From Bradyrhizobium sp. Gha (lineage in GTDB: Bacteria; Pseudomonadota; Alphaproteobacteria; Rhizobiales; Xanthobacteraceae), in the NCBI RefSeq assembly GCF_900113735.1, contig NZ_FOQM01000019.1, forward strand, positions 62,001 to 126,000: a stretch of 64,000 bases of DNA, given 5' to 3'. The translations under genes were made by a program, and so were the position numbers. The notes under the pieces were generated by a model. That model ran no database searches. It was not told the origin of the DNA and saw only the letters and a program-made list of their open reading frames with translations. Every line of letters begins with the position of its first letter. Position 1 is the first letter of the stretch. Positions 1-18,653 of this stretch are shown here, piece by piece.

Positions 1-1497
1 GCCGGGTGCGACTTCGGTGAGCTCGAGCCCGTCGGGCCGCAGCGTGAAGACGCAGCGCTCGGTGACATAGAGCACGCGCTGCCCGCGGGCTGCGGCGAAA
101 GGGCCACTGAAGGTGACGTGCTCGACGTGATCGACGAATTTGCGCGACTTGGCCTCTTCGACAATGGTGAGCTGCCCGTCGGTGACGGCGATGCGCTGCC
201 TGCCGGCGGCAAAGGTGCCGACGAACACGACCTCCTTGGCATTCTGGCTGATGTTGATGAAACCGCCGGCGCCCGCCAGCTTCGGCCCAAACTTGCTGAC
301 ATTGAGATTGCCGGTGCGATCGACCTGCGCGAGCCCGAGGAAGGCCGCATCCAGCCCGCCACCGTCATAGAAGTCGAACTGATAGGGCTGATCGATCACG
401 GCCTGGGTATTGATCGCCGCGCCGAAATCGATGCCGCTCGCGGGAATGCCGCCGATCACGCCGGGCTCCGCGGTCAGCGTGATCAGGTCGATGATGCGCT
501 CTTCGTTGGCGACCGAGGCGATCCCTTCGGGCATGCCGATGCCGAGATTGACGACGCTGTTGGCCTTCAGCTCGAAGGCCGCGCGGCGCGCGATGATCTT
601 GCGCTCGCTCAGCGGCATCTCGGGCAGCGATGCCGCGCGCACTCGGATCTCGCTGGAATAAGCAGGATTATACTGTGTGCCAAAGGTCTGCCAGTGATGC
701 TCGGGCCTGGCCACGACGACGCAATCGACCAGCACGCCGGGAATCTTGACCTGGCGCGGATTGAGGCTGCCGCTCTCGGCGACACGCTCGACCTGGGCGA
801 TGACGATGCCGCCGGAATTGTGCGCGGCCATGGCGATCGCCAGCGCTTCCAGCGTCAGCGCTTCCTTCTCCATGGTGAGGTTACCGTCAGGATCGCCTGT
901 GGTGGCGCGGATGATCCCGACATTGATCGGGAACGTCCGATAGAGCAGGCATTCCTCGCCGCGCAGGGTGATCAGCTCCACCATGTCCTCGGTGGTGCGC
1001 GCATTCAGCTTGCCGCCGCCATGCCTGGGGTCGACGAAGGTGCCGATGCCAACGCGGCTGATATGGCCCGGCCGGTGTGCCGCGATGTCGCGGAACAGGT
1101 GCGTGATCACGCCCTGCGGCAGATTGTAGGCCTCGATCTGGTTGGCGATCGCGAGCTGCTGCAGTTTCGGGGCAAGACCCCAGTGCCCGCCGATCACCCG
1201 GCGGACCAGGCCTTCGTGGGCGAAATGGTTGAGGCCGCGGTGCTTGCCGTCGCCCTGGCCTGCGGCATAGACCAGCGTCAGATTGCGCGGCTTGCCCTGC
1301 GTGTAGGGCGCATCGCCCTCGTTGGCGAGATAGAGTTCCTCCAGCGCCACCGCGATCTCCTCGGCAAAGCCGATACCGACGAAGCCGCCGGTGGCGACCG
1401 TGTCGCCGTCGCGGATCAGCATCACGGCTTCCTCGGCCGTGACGATCTTGCCCTTGCCGGAGTTTGGCAGATAGGCCAAGGCAGGGTGCTGGTTCAC
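1..1497 (-). CDS. Acyl-CoA:carboxylate CoA-transferase (YdiF/propionate CoA-transferase type), 3' end outside window
   Basis: Transfers CoA between an acyl-CoA and a free carboxylate such as acetate, propionate or a 3-oxoacid, in the cytoplasm. The 499 visible residues make up nearly all of a fused alpha-beta class I CoA-transferase (the family is about 520-530 residues). The N-terminal half holds the alpha-like domain and the C-terminal half the beta-like domain. The sequence TAEPGVIGG carries the expected catalytic Glu at about residue 344. The GTG start at 1497 follows a GGGAGGAC ribosome site about 7 bases upstream; no ATG fits. It lies 80 nt downstream of the MFS carrier on the same strand, so the two may be co-transcribed and the carrier may supply the acid that is activated here. 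The stop codon is off the left edge. The family is secure; the substrate is unknown. Confidence 0.9.
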
Positions 1498-1577: not shown

Positions 1578-2879
1578 TCAGACCTTGCGGGTTTCGGTGG
1601 CGAAATAGACCGAGACGATCGTGATGATCGCGAGCGCGATCATGTAGAGCGAGATCGGCCAGGTTGCCGGCGCGTAGGCCGTCATCAGGCCCGTCGCGAT
1701 CAGCGGCGACAGCGCACCGGCAAAGATCGAGGCGAGGTTGTAGCCGAGCGAGACGCCGCTATAGCGCACCTTGGTGCCGAACAGCTCCGACAGGAAGCTC
1801 GCCTGGGGGCCGTACATCGCGGCGTGCCCGATGGCGAGGCCGAGCACGATTGCGATCCAGGTCAGATGTGGGTTCTTGGTCGACAGCAGCATGAACAGCG
1901 GGAACGACATCAGTGCGGAGAACACCGCGCCGAAAATATAGATCGGCCGCCGCCCGACCTTGTCGGACAGCGCGCCGAAAGCCGGGATCGTGAAGGTCTC
2001 GATCGCAGCCGCGATCAGGACGCCGTTCAGCATGTCCTGCTTGTTCATGCCGAGCGATTGCGTCGCAAAGGCGAGCACGAAGGTGGCATAGATGTAGAAG
2101 AAGCCGTTCTCGGCGAAGCGCGCGCCCATCGCGAGCAGGATGTTCTTGGGATACATCCTGAGAGCCTCCAGGATCGGCATCTTCACCTCTTGCTTGGTGT
2201 CCTTGACCTTCTGGAACTCGGGCGATTCCGCGATCGTGAAGCGGATCCAGAGGCCGACCAGCACCAGCGCGATCGAGACCAGGAACGGGATGCGCCAGCC
2301 CCAGGCGAAGAGCTGCGCGTCGCTCAGTGTCGAGGACACCACCGTGAACACCAGCGTGCCGAGCACGAGGCCGAGTGGAGCCCCCAGCTGCGGCCAGCTG
2401 CCGTAAAAGCCGCGTCTGTCCTCGGGGGCGTGCTCGACCGCCATCAGCACGGCGCCGCCCCATTCGCCGCCGAGGCCAAAACCCTGGACCAGGCGGCAGG
2501 TGACGAGCAGGACCGCGGCCCAGATGCCGGCGGTATCGTAGGTCGGCAGGAATCCGATCGCCGCCGTCGCCGCGCCCATGATCAGCAGCGTGAGATACAG
2601 CATGGTCTTGCGGCCGATCTTGTCGCCGTAGTGGCCGAACACGACCCCGCCCAGCGGGCGTGCGATGAAGCCGAGCGCGTAAGTCGCGAACGCCAGCAGC
2701 GTGCCGATCATGGGATCGAACGTCGGAAAGAACAGCTTGTTGAAGATCAGCGCCGCCGCGGTGCCGTAGAGAAAGAAGTCGTACCACTCGATGGCCGTGC
2801 CGATCAGGCTCGCGGTTGCGACCGTGACATGCGACGGCTGCTTGGCCCCGAGTTCATTGACGGTGATCGCTCCACTCAT
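1578..2879 (-). CDS. MFS transporter, metabolite:H+ symporter (MHS) family
   Basis: Inner-membrane carrier of 433 residues with about 12 membrane segments. It probably imports a carboxylate or similar metabolite with protons. The N-terminal EWYDFFLYG (residues 31-39) is characteristic of the MHS group (ShiA, KgtP, ProP and relatives), and the loop GHYGDKIGRK (about 82-91) is the MFS motif A. An in-frame upstream start would add 13 residues, but the ATG at 2879 follows GGGAGGACG and is preferred. A sigma54-type promoter lies about 60 nt upstream and a palindrome further out, next to the gene for a sigma54 activator. The CoA-transferase gene follows. The substrate cannot be read from sequence; an organic acid fits the neighbours. 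Confidence 0.92.
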   Translation of the reverse strand: MSGAITVNELGAKQPSHVTVATASLIGTAIEWYDFFLYGTAAALIFNKLFFPTFDPMIGTLLAFATYALGFIARPLGGVVFGHYGDKIGRKTMLYLTLLIMGAATAAIGFLPTYDTAGIWAAVLLVTCRLVQGFGLGGEWGGAVLMAVEHAPEDRRGFYGSWPQLGAPLGLVLGTLVFTVVSSTLSDAQLFAWGWRIPFLVSIALVLVGLWIRFTIAESPEFQKVKDTKQEVKMPILEALRMYPKNILLAMGARFAENGFFYIYATFVLAFATQSLGMNKQDMLNGVLIAAAIETFTIPAFGALSDKVGRRPIYIFGAVFSALMSFPLFMLLSTKNPHLTWIAIVLGLAIGHAAMYGPQASFLSELFGTKVRYSGVSLGYNLASIFAGALSPLIATGLMTAYAPATWPISLYMIALAIITIVSVYFATETRKV

Positions 2880-2939
2880 CTGGCGTCCTCCCTGTTTGCG
2901 AATGCGCATGTGCGCCATGCGTCATTGTGCAAAGCGAAA

Positions 2940-2955
2940 AGCAAGGGCCGCGCCA
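2940..2955 (-). promoter_or_regulatory. Sigma54 (-24/-12) promoter of the MHS carrier
   Basis: On the minus strand the sequence TGGCGCGGCCCTTGCT matches the RpoN consensus TGGCACG-N4-TTGCW, with GG and GC exactly 10 nt apart. Initiation would fall near 2929, leaving a leader of about 50 nt before the ATG at 2879. The adjacent regulator has the GAFTGA-type loop needed to activate this class of promoter, which supports the call. Confidence 0.8.
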
Positions 2956-3030
2956 GATGCGACACCAATGAGCAAATGACTGAAATTCCGGCAATTCCCG
3001 CATTCGGCGCCAGGAAATGAGTGCTGAACA

Positions 3031-3061
3031 GACTGTCCGGAGTCTGAGACTCCGGACAGTC
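3031..3061. promoter_or_regulatory. Perfect palindrome, likely upstream activator site for the sigma54 regulator
   Basis: Arms GACTGTCCGGAGTC (3031-3044) and GACTCCGGACAGTC (3048-3061) are perfect inverted repeats with a TGA spacer. The site lies about 100-130 nt upstream of the predicted sigma54 start, the usual place for an enhancer, and just past the stop codon of the regulator gene. The TGTC...GACA outer bases resemble sites of Fis-type activators. It could also act as a terminator for the regulator gene, but no T-run follows. Confidence 0.65.
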
Positions 3062-3074
3062 TCCGTCTCGAAAC

Positions 3075-4517
3075 TCAGACGGAAGCGGGCCCTGAGGCGA
3101 GCCCGAATTTGGCGAGCTTCTTGTAGAAGGTCGCGCGCGAGATCTGGAGCAGCTTGGCGGCTTCGGAGATCTGACCGTTGCTGGCGGCAAGCGCCTGCTC
3201 GAGCGTTTGCTTCTCGAACTCCGCCTCGGCCTCGGCATAGGGCAGCACGAAGCCGGCGGCCCGCGCGGTCGAAGCCGGCCTCGCATCCGTGCCGACGGGG
3301 AGGATGCGCGCGAAATCGTCACCGCTCAGCCGCCCGGAATCGCTCAGGATCAGTGCGCGTTCCAGAACGTTGCGAAGCTCGCGGACGTTGCCCGGCCAAT
3401 CGTAGCGGGCAAGCACGGTCAGCGCGCTCGGAGTGATCTTGGCGCTGACATGATCACCGGAGGCGCTGATATCCTCGAGCAGCCGGGCGCTGATGTCGGG
3501 GAGATCGTCGAGACAGTCGCGCAGGGGCGGCAAGTCGATCGAGAGCACGTTGAGGCGGTAATAGAGGTCGGGTCGAAAGGTGCCGTCGCTGACGCGCTTG
3601 CGCAAATCGACATTGGTGGCGGCGACGACGCGTAGATCGACCTTGGAGATCTTGTCCGATCCGAGCGGCTCGATCTCGCGCTCCTGCAGCACACGCAATA
3701 GCTTGGCCTGCAGTTGCAGCGGCATCTCGCCGATCTCGTCCAGAAACAGGGTTCCGCCGTCGGCGATCCGGAATTTCCCCTCGCGCCCCTTGCGATCGGC
3801 CCCGGTATAGGCGCCCGGTGCGGTGCCGAAAAATTCCGATTCGATCAGCGTGTCCGGGATCGCGGCGACATTGACGCTGACGAACGGCTTCTCGGCGCGG
3901 GAGGAGGCATTGTGAATGGCTTGCGCCAGCATCTCCTTGCCCGTCCCGGTCTCGCCGGTGAGCAGGACGGTGACGTTTTGCCGGGCGGCGCGGCCTGCGA
4001 GCTCCTTGGCCTGCGTGATTCCAGGGGTCCTGCCGACGAAGTCGGCGAAGGTGAAGCGCGCGGCACGGGCGTTGGACAATTGCCGCCGCGCCAGCCGCAA
4101 ATCGCTCTCGAGCTGGGCGACGCGCGCAAGCAATGGCTTGAGGCTTTCCAGACGGTCATACAGCACGAAGCCGATCGCTCCGATGACGTTGCGCCTCTCG
4201 TCCTCGATCGGCATGCGCGTCACGACCAGCTGCTCGCCGCCGAGCTCCATGATGTCGAGCAGGATCGGCTCGCCGGTTTCGACGACCTTCCGCATCATGC
4301 TGTTCGGAATGACCTCCTCGATCGGCCGTCCGATCGCCTCGGAGGTGTGCTTGAGACCGAGCGAGGCGAGGTACTTCTCATTGACATAGATCACGCGTCC
4401 GCCCCGATCGATGGCGATCGCGCCCTCGCACAGATGCTCCAGCCGCTCGAACAGCGTCACCATCGCGCGCGCGCGGACATAGGCGGGATCGCTGACGTCA
4501 GGGGACGTGTGGGGCAT
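3075..4517 (-). CDS. Sigma54-dependent transcriptional activator with PAS sensor domain
   Basis: Cytoplasmic enhancer-binding protein of 480 residues. A PAS domain (about 26-125) is followed by a short coiled linker (about 125-155), an AAA+ domain and a Fis-type helix-turn-helix at the C-terminus (ISEAAKLLQISRATFYKKL). Walker A is GETGTGK (188-194), Walker B GGTLFLDEIG (254-263), and GAYTGA (235-240) is the sigma54-contact loop with the usual Phe-to-Tyr change. The architecture resembles PAS-type activators of acid catabolism genes. A longer reading frame starts at 4616, but the ATG at 4517 has a GAGG site and begins at conserved sequence. There is no receiver domain, so the signal is probably a small ligand sensed by PAS. 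It probably controls the carrier and CoA-transferase genes downstream. Confidence 0.93.
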   Translation of the reverse strand: MPHTSPDVSDPAYVRARAMVTLFERLEHLCEGAIAIDRGGRVIYVNEKYLASLGLKHTSEAIGRPIEEVIPNSMMRKVVETGEPILLDIMELGGEQLVVTRMPIEDERRNVIGAIGFVLYDRLESLKPLLARVAQLESDLRLARRQLSNARAARFTFADFVGRTPGITQAKELAGRAARQNVTVLLTGETGTGKEMLAQAIHNASSRAEKPFVSVNVAAIPDTLIESEFFGTAPGAYTGADRKGREGKFRIADGGTLFLDEIGEMPLQLQAKLLRVLQEREIEPLGSDKISKVDLRVVAATNVDLRKRVSDGTFRPDLYYRLNVLSIDLPPLRDCLDDLPDISARLLEDISASGDHVSAKITPSALTVLARYDWPGNVRELRNVLERALILSDSGRLSGDDFARILPVGTDARPASTARAAGFVLPYAEAEAEFEKQTLEQALAASNGQISEAAKLLQISRATFYKKLAKFGLASGPASV

Positions 4518-4624
4518 GGCGCGCCTCGGGGAGCTCCGCCTGTTTATTACCAAAAGGGCTGTGATTTCAAAGGGGGAATCGGCGTGACGGGTTAACGTGC
4601 GTAAGCATTCGCCCAAGATCTATC

Positions 4625-4757
4625 CCGTCACCCTGAGGTGGCCGCTTCTTCAGCGGCCCTCGAAGGGCGACGGGCCCGGCTGGCAGCCCGGCCGTTCATC
4701 CTTCGAGGCTCCGCCCACGATGCTTCGCATCGCGAGCCTCGCACCTCAGGATGACGG
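4625..4757. repeat. Intergenic palindromic repeat (CCCTGAGGTG type)
   Basis: CCCTGAGGTG near 4631-4640 is answered by CACCTCAGGATGACGG at 4742-4757, with several inner inverted segments (GGCCGCTTCTTCAGCGGCC at 4640-4658; cattcgcat-like repeats near 4720). It fills most of the 276-nt gap upstream of the regulator gene. It resembles the multicopy, non-coding palindromes common in Bradyrhizobium intergenic DNA; only one copy of this family is visible here. Confidence 0.55.
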
Positions 4758-4793
4758 AGGAGCGTTAGCGCTCGTCGCACGATAAGGGATAGC

Positions 4794-16041: not shown

Positions 16042-16086
16042 GTGGTTGTCCTCGAAATCAATTCAGCTGCAGACGACGCCCTTTCC

Positions 16087-16114
16087 GTTCCCTCCCCCCA
16101 AGGGGGGAGGGAAC
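16087..16114. terminator. Bidirectional hairpin between convergent GH13 genes
   Basis: Perfect 13-bp arms GTTCCCTCCCCCC and GGGGGGAGGGAAC enclose an AA loop, between two convergent stop codons (16041 and 16136). The position suits a shared terminator. The purine/pyrimidine-rich arms also resemble the C-rich intergenic repeat at 37213-37370. Confidence 0.6.
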
Positions 16115-16135
16115 GCACCCCCGTCGGGGCGCTAG

Positions 16136-18617: not shown

Positions 18618-18653
18618 CGTAGGGTGGGTTACGCTTTGCTAACCCACCCTACG
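18618..18653. terminator. Hairpin of GTAGGGTGGGTTA family between mmcB and regR
   Basis: Arms CGTAGGGTGGGTTA (18618-18631) and TAACCCACCCTACG (18640-18653) are perfect 14-bp inverted repeats around CGCTTTGC. The hairpin sits between convergent stop codons, so it can terminate both transcripts. The same arm sequence recurs at 7852-7989, showing that a mobile or multicopy hairpin has been placed at gene ends. Confidence 0.7.

Follow-up and report, generated by a model that had tools for sequence, protein, structure and literature searches.

The region between a sigma54 activator gene and the gene of an MHS-family carrier in Bradyrhizobium sp. Gha probably holds the enhancer together with the sigma54 promoter that serves an uptake-and-activation operon, commanded by an HbcR-like activator that senses a short-chain hydroxy- or keto-acid. 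This reading is backed by sequence comparison, as seen in the promoter, both predicted operators, their spacing, the gene order, and the kinship of the activator and the enzyme. By means of this conserved switch, Bradyrhizobium probably turns on the uptake of a small organic acid and its activation. The features lie in the window, meaning the whole stretch of 64,000 nucleotides that was analysed, as follows:

1-1497, minus strand: YdiF-type CoA-transferase (PF01144 above the cut-off; best solved relative 2ahu, E 1.9e-142)
1578-2879, minus strand: MHS-family carrier (TIGR00883, 463.1 bits, cut-off 443.45)
2940-2955, minus strand: sigma54 -24/-12 element TGGCGCGGCCCTTGCT (11/12 consensus letters; conservation)
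2971-2996, strand not given: conserved block between the operators and the promoter (column conservation over 78 loci)
3030-3062, no strand: perfect palindrome with 16-bp arms AGACTGTCCGGAGTCT / AGACTCCGGACAGTCT and a 1-nt centre (inverted-repeat match)
3034-3058, no strand: 25-bp core of the palindrome (conserved in orthologous loci)
3035-3050, minus strand: predicted proximal operator, which lies within the palindrome and reads GTCTC-N6-CGGAC, as a diverged version of the family motif GTCTC-N6-GAGAC
3065-3080, minus strand: predicted distal operator GTCTGAGTTTCGAGAC, which shares bases with the final GTC codon and the TGA stop (3075-3077) of the activator gene
3075-4517, minus strand: sigma54 activator, PAS - AAA+ - Fis-type HTH (Pfam PF00158, PF25601, PF02954 and PF08448 above the cut-off)

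A sequence-only reading of this DNA had proposed a complete sigma54 control region, and its regulatory call appears right in outline, now with comparative support: the promoter, the dedicated upstream site and the co-travelling activator stand, whereas the palindrome seems to be only part of a larger enhancer and the operon is longer.

Regarding the mechanism, the product of the activator gene, located immediately upstream of the operon in the same direction, would run the switch. Its PAS domain would bind a hydroxy- or keto-acid of short chain length, the likeliest candidates being 3-hydroxybutyrate and acetoacetate, and its Fis-type HTH would occupy two operators of the GTCTC-N6-GAGAC type, the distal one lying across the gene end and the proximal one, diverged, in the palindrome. 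The AAA+ ring would form approximately 90-120 bp upstream, loop to the sigma54 polymerase at the -24/-12 element and open the promoter. The MHS carrier, the CoA-transferase, the binding protein and LivGFHM would then be made, and the acid would be imported and converted to its CoA thioester. Ring formation, looping and promoter opening are established sigma54 biology; for this locus, we infer the ligand, the substrate, activator binding, looping, the start of transcription and co-transcription. Counting against this reading are relatives that have no motif, the low HTH identity, the placement in the tree, the lack of a dehydrogenase in the operon, carriers of types not known for 3-hydroxybutyrate, the loss of the -24/-12 element in two loci and the presence of the activator in a minority of genomes.

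The activator, its candidate ligand and the operon

With its AAA+ (PF00158) and HTH_8 (PF02954) domains above the cut-off, the protein classifies as a sigma54 activator, and its start is predicted at residue 34 of a 513-residue frame. Counting the window's own genome, the activator is present in 80 of 195 genomes of the genus (E up to 1e-100) and missing in 115; one locus per activator-bearing genome gives the 80 Bradyrhizobium loci compared below, which are related to each other, their counts not being independent events. At the family level, 8 of 248 genomes carry it, as do 2 of 47 genera (E up to 1e-140). The Walker A sequence GETGTGKE is preserved in all 80 orthologous loci and the Walker B sequence GGTLFLDEI in 79. 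The GAYTGA loop, already noticed in the activator from its sequence, is present there and alike in 78 of the 80, with GAFTGA in one and no match in one. Upstream of the activator gene, at 4620-4760, there is a repeat-like palindromic stretch of the CACCTCAGGATGACGG type, presumably a known kind of repeat in these bacteria.

For the PAS domain, identity is 42-50% with nine HbcR-like activators from other genera and 68% with L098; it falls to 30-32% with two further Bradyrhizobium activators and to 14-21% with six activators of its own genome. The HTH identity to HbcR-like proteins is only 32-55%. In the tree, the HbcR-like group of 32 rows has a support of 91/88, below the starred level, and long branches leave the position of the own-genome activators unsure; the Bradyrhizobium activators are found nearest to an Azospirillum activator beside TRAP-type genes (89/90). 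The nearest solved relative of the PAS domain, the cytoplasmic PAS of CitA (5fq1, 8bjp), points to no ligand.

The HbcR-like genes adjoin a permease gene and that of an SDR similar to 3-hydroxybutyrate dehydrogenase, accompanied in some cases by acetoacetyl-CoA synthetase or AtoDA-like genes, these enzyme names being assigned by eye and by similarity and the genomes being taken as Pseudomonas-like. Their neighbours are a CoA-transferase and a permease in L171, L270, L273, L276 and L280, a CoA-transferase without permease in L261, L263 and L267, a permease and an SDR in L266, L271 and L275, TRAP-type genes with or without an SDR in L260, L268 and L274, and other genes elsewhere. The carboxylate, left unnamed by the sequence-only reading, can be narrowed to a short list of hydroxy- and keto-acids since the nearest kin of the activator and of its PAS domain are activators located in 3-hydroxybutyrate-type clusters.

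HbcR (PA2005), through which sigma54 controls the breakdown of (R)-3-hydroxybutyrate in Pseudomonas, is likewise a PAS - AAA+ - Fis-type activator adjoining its targets. The Pseudomonas-like loci, which have GTCTC-N6-GAGAC upstream of a sigma54-like site, are presumably HbcR loci, judging by their gene order permease - SDR - acetoacetyl-CoA synthetase. In contrast to the permease and dehydrogenase of HbcR, the Bradyrhizobium cargo consists of an MHS carrier, a CoA-transferase and an ABC system; moreover, its operators are diverged and the distal one overlaps the activator stop codon. As stated in PMC10482368, HbcR can be activated by (R)-3-hydroxybutyrate. In P. putida, in contrast to P. aeruginosa, another dehydrogenase is described as having greater importance. 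A 3-hydroxybutyrate dehydrogenase is not encoded in the Bradyrhizobium operon, and four relatives, at 55-58%, are found elsewhere in the genome.

The gap between the activator and the start of the MHS carrier measures 195 bp, both genes having the same direction (minus). The carrier probably starts at 2879, within a frame open from 2918 and with GGAGG at 2887-2891; its score falls short of that curated for the shikimate transporter NF007414 (422 against 538 bits). As for the CoA-transferase, the window holds the first 499 of 682 residues, and the whole gene corresponds to L010:6449-8497. Its score is likewise below the one curated for the staphylococcal FadX NF052271 (406.7 against 750 bits). 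It aligns end to end with E. coli YdiF (2ahu) over residues 13-533, placing Glu344 opposite Glu333, which we take to be the catalytic residue of YdiF; it differs from YdiF by approximately 150 further C-terminal residues (P0005 residues about 534-682), for which no match was obtained in Pfam or PDB searches.

Beyond the left edge of the window, the gene of the binding protein, which is periplasmic, is followed by LivG-, LivF-, LivH- and LivM-like genes, all in one direction. Both genes of the operon that had been proposed from the window, an MHS carrier and a CoA-transferase, are present, but the predicted operon has seven genes, namely these two, the binding protein and four ABC-transporter genes, five of the seven lying beyond the left edge. 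We know of no MHS carrier or ABC system of this type for 3-hydroxybutyrate. A search of titles and abstracts, with most subscription journals outside its coverage, recognised no publication on the Bradyrhizobium operon, which now gains an inducer and a mechanism that can be put to the test.

The genes under the switch vary among the 80 loci, many of which are 4.5 kb stretches showing the first downstream gene only. The MHS carrier comes next after the activator in 40 loci; 15 of these MHS loci, seen as stretches of 7-8 kb, continue with CoA-transferase, binding protein and LivG, as in the window's genome. The CoA-transferase comes next in 18 loci, and 7 have a GntP-like permease and a CoA-transferase without Liv genes within 8 kb. 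The other 15 have neither MHS carrier nor CoA-transferase and continue with the binding protein; two of them have lost the -24/-12 element. The 15 genomes without a local CoA-transferase have none elsewhere in 13 cases (E up to 1e-150) and a 50% relative in 2. The MHS and CoA-transferase pairing, on which an import pathway had been built, is not fixed, as relatives swap the carrier or drop the CoA-transferase while keeping the switch.

The permease, presumably GntP-like as named here (L083:2728-4134 and relatives), has no sequence match in Pfam, NCBIfam or PDB. It is 66-74% identical to permeases beside an SDR in other genera and has close relatives in 43 of 347 genomes of a phylum sample. The structure predicted for it has moderate confidence (pTM 0.62, mean pLDDT 60.9); the best matches of the model are mostly anion and carboxylate carriers (NaS1, NaDC1, TRAP membrane parts) with low TM-scores, the top one being an unrelated model entry.

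The same switch could also respond to another acid, aromatic or some other carboxylate, the kinship with 3-hydroxybutyrate regulators being only ancestral. The binding protein aligns nearly full-length with 3n0x and 3nnd (E 4.5e-225 and 1.9e-215), which we take to be R. palustris proteins, and its more distant solved relatives include 4ey3, 4evq and 4f06, presumably binders of aromatic acids, as are others. PMC3223731 reports aromatic ligands for several R. palustris binding proteins of this kind. HbcR-like activators also adjoin TRAP-type and other genes. However, the cargo has a YdiF-type CoA-transferase, the 7 loci with a permease close to the SDR-adjacent ones have to be accommodated, and no ligand of 3n0x or 3nnd, the closest solved relatives, was found in the literature searched, making this alternative conceivable but somewhat improbable. 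If the acid is a short-chain hydroxy- or keto-acid, as preferred here, its uptake and CoA activation would bear on the carbon economy of Bradyrhizobium, because these bacteria store polyhydroxybutyrate.

The predicted operators and the end of the activator gene

The motif GTCTC-N6-GAGAC, derived here as the operator of a widespread activator family, was scanned on both sides of the gene in 32 loci outside the genus whose activators are 45-64% identical; the scan left out loci below 44% identity and L098, the same locus as L257. It is exact in 11 of the 32 loci (Markov-shuffle mean 0.02, maximum 1) and has at most one mismatch in 16 (mean 0.82, maximum 4), while other spacers from 0 to 19 gave no exact match except one at 19, and between 0 and 4 matches with one mismatch. 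A sigma54-like site of at least 10/12 letters is located within 200 bp downstream in 8 of the 11 loci with the exact motif. The exact form is missing in 21 of the 32 loci, and 16 have not even the one-mismatch form; L170/L171 are among the motif-less loci, though the trio of activator, permease and CoA-transferase is otherwise the same.

In Bradyrhizobium, the predicted distal operator reads GTCTG-N6-GAGAC, one change from the family motif. For this site, the comparison was extended to 99 distinct loci, consisting of the 80 plus 55 named Bradyrhizobium loci (from 80 of 588 confirmed places, among the matches listed) minus 36 whose 300 bp downstream were identical to those of a locus already in the set. 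The distal operator is at most one mismatch from GTCTC-N6-GAGAC in 97 of the 99, again among the matches listed, and has two in L012 and L248.

The activator gene ends in GTC TGA in all 80 loci and in 16 of 19 further distinct loci among the matches listed. This last codon GTC is the only invariant one among 58 conserved multi-codon residues of the last 120 codons, three other residues of the 58 reaching 0.99 for a single codon. In 5 of the 99 loci (among the matches listed), the distal operator is away from the stop codon, with shifts from 15 to 255 bp, and in all five the distal operator, the palindrome and the promoter remain together. Their gene end is GTT TGA or GTG TGA in two and still GTC TGA in three; in L088, one of the five, the distal operator is a perfect GTCTC-N6-GAGAC. 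The displaced operators, together with the invariance of the GTC codon, argue that it is the DNA site, and not the protein, that holds the bases of the gene end, with the reservation that shared ancestry weakens the counts.

In L014 and L074, approximately 250 bp past the activator stop codon, the gene end is parted from the operator by an insertion whose ends are inverted and GTCCGGGACGACA-like, and GTCTGA occurs on both sides of it, as a target-site duplication would give. The displaced operators, the exchanged carriers and the lost promoters can be regarded as natural experiments on a regulatory site and a gene end that share bases.

A further-reaching proposal, which we consider rather doubtful as a whole, is that the enhancer doubles as coding sequence. 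The distal operator would spell the last codon and stop codon of the very activator that binds there, holding GTC TGA in place even as the switch comes to govern different genes (MHS carrier, GntP-like permease or ABC system, with or without CoA-transferase). With the operon, the cell would take up 3-hydroxybutyrate or a closely similar acid and make the CoA thioester from it directly, bypassing the dehydrogenase used in Pseudomonas and perhaps feeding straight into polyhydroxybutyrate.

The palindrome at 3030-3062 is the other of the two predicted operators. It had been described as perfect, with 14-bp arms, about 75 nt upstream of the promoter element; the perfection and the distance are right, the arms being 16 bp long. 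Perfect inverted repeats with arms of at least 12 and loops of at most 8 occur at three places in the window, against a mean of 0.35 in shuffles; the two others (16086-16115 and 18618-18653, arms of 14) look like ordinary intergenic hairpins. In the relatives, the site is mostly an imperfect dyad, TGTCCGGAGTCTCGGATTCCGGACA. Of the 18 core letters, the 25-mer keeps 16 or more in 79 of the 80 loci and 12 in L082, the core and its letters being derived from the same 80 loci as were scored. Its perfection is not conserved, as only 2 of 78 loci have 12/12 pairing and 58 of 78 have 9 or 10 of the 12 positions paired; by this comparison, a conserved site has been sharpened locally into the perfect palindrome that the window shows.

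The proximal operator within the palindrome has two mismatches to GTCTC-N6-GAGAC in 72 of the 80 loci, one in 3, three in 4 and five in 1. A second family site in the palindrome (GTCCG-N6-CAGAC) is not claimed, having 3-6 mismatches over the 80 loci. The palindrome as a mark of a wider regulon was also rejected: TGTCT-N8-AGACA is found at two places in the genome, against one for the control, and at one of these a -24/-12-like match of 10/12 letters lies on the wrong side, whereas the other has none of at least 10/12 in its locus. A genome-wide repeat was discarded as well, the window's genome having one copy of the palindrome with up to 3 mismatches allowed. This single copy, along with the varying downstream genes, makes the activator look local and its cargo exchangeable under the same switch.

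Instead of an operator, the palindrome could serve the activator gene as a terminator of transcription or as a hairpin in its mRNA. It begins 12 bp past the activator stop codon, in the same direction, and the folding energy of the RNA from 2990-3080 is -40.6 kcal/mol (z -3.70), a value reached by none of 200 shuffles. However, no terminator-like site was called at the palindrome, the sole call in 2850-3200 being at 2963-2947, over the -24 element; Rfam gave no match up to E 1; and the orthologous dyads are mostly imperfect. In addition, in the five loci whose gene end is shifted by 15-255 bp, the dyad keeps its distance of 91-93 bp to the promoter instead of following the gene end. A terminator in place of an operator is thus quite improbable, although the palindrome, read as an operator, could act as a hairpin in addition.

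The sigma54 promoter

The match to the RpoN consensus reported on the minus strand, with GG and GC 10 nt apart, is present at 2955-2940 with 11 of 12 letters and near-consensus flanks. A scan of the window found TGGCGCGGCCCTTGCT as its sole site with at least 11/12 letters. Taken alone, the match is no more than chance, because a mean of 1.05 such sites is expected per window (20 shuffles); it is the comparison that makes it convincing, and the significance of both promoter and palindrome appears to come from their conservation. The element is kept in 78 of the 80 Bradyrhizobium loci with the activator, L053 being scored as having it despite TTGT in place of TTGC. In these 78 loci, the distance from the GG to the centre of the palindrome is 92 bp in 45, 93 in 19, 91 in 13 and 90 in 1. 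Transcription is predicted to start near 2929.

That the match is accidental and the carrier uses another promoter is hardly credible: about one match of such quality is to be expected by chance, and L051 and L079 live without the element, but its retention at a fixed operator spacing speaks against accident, and a simple consensus scan of 2850-3200 found no sigma70-type site.

In L051 and L079, just 3' of the activator, the palindrome is present, the -24/-12 element is missing and a binding-protein gene is close behind; the transporter may there use another promoter, or the switch may be decaying. Between the operators and the promoter of the window, the conserved block at 2971-2996 is possibly a bend or an additional protein site.
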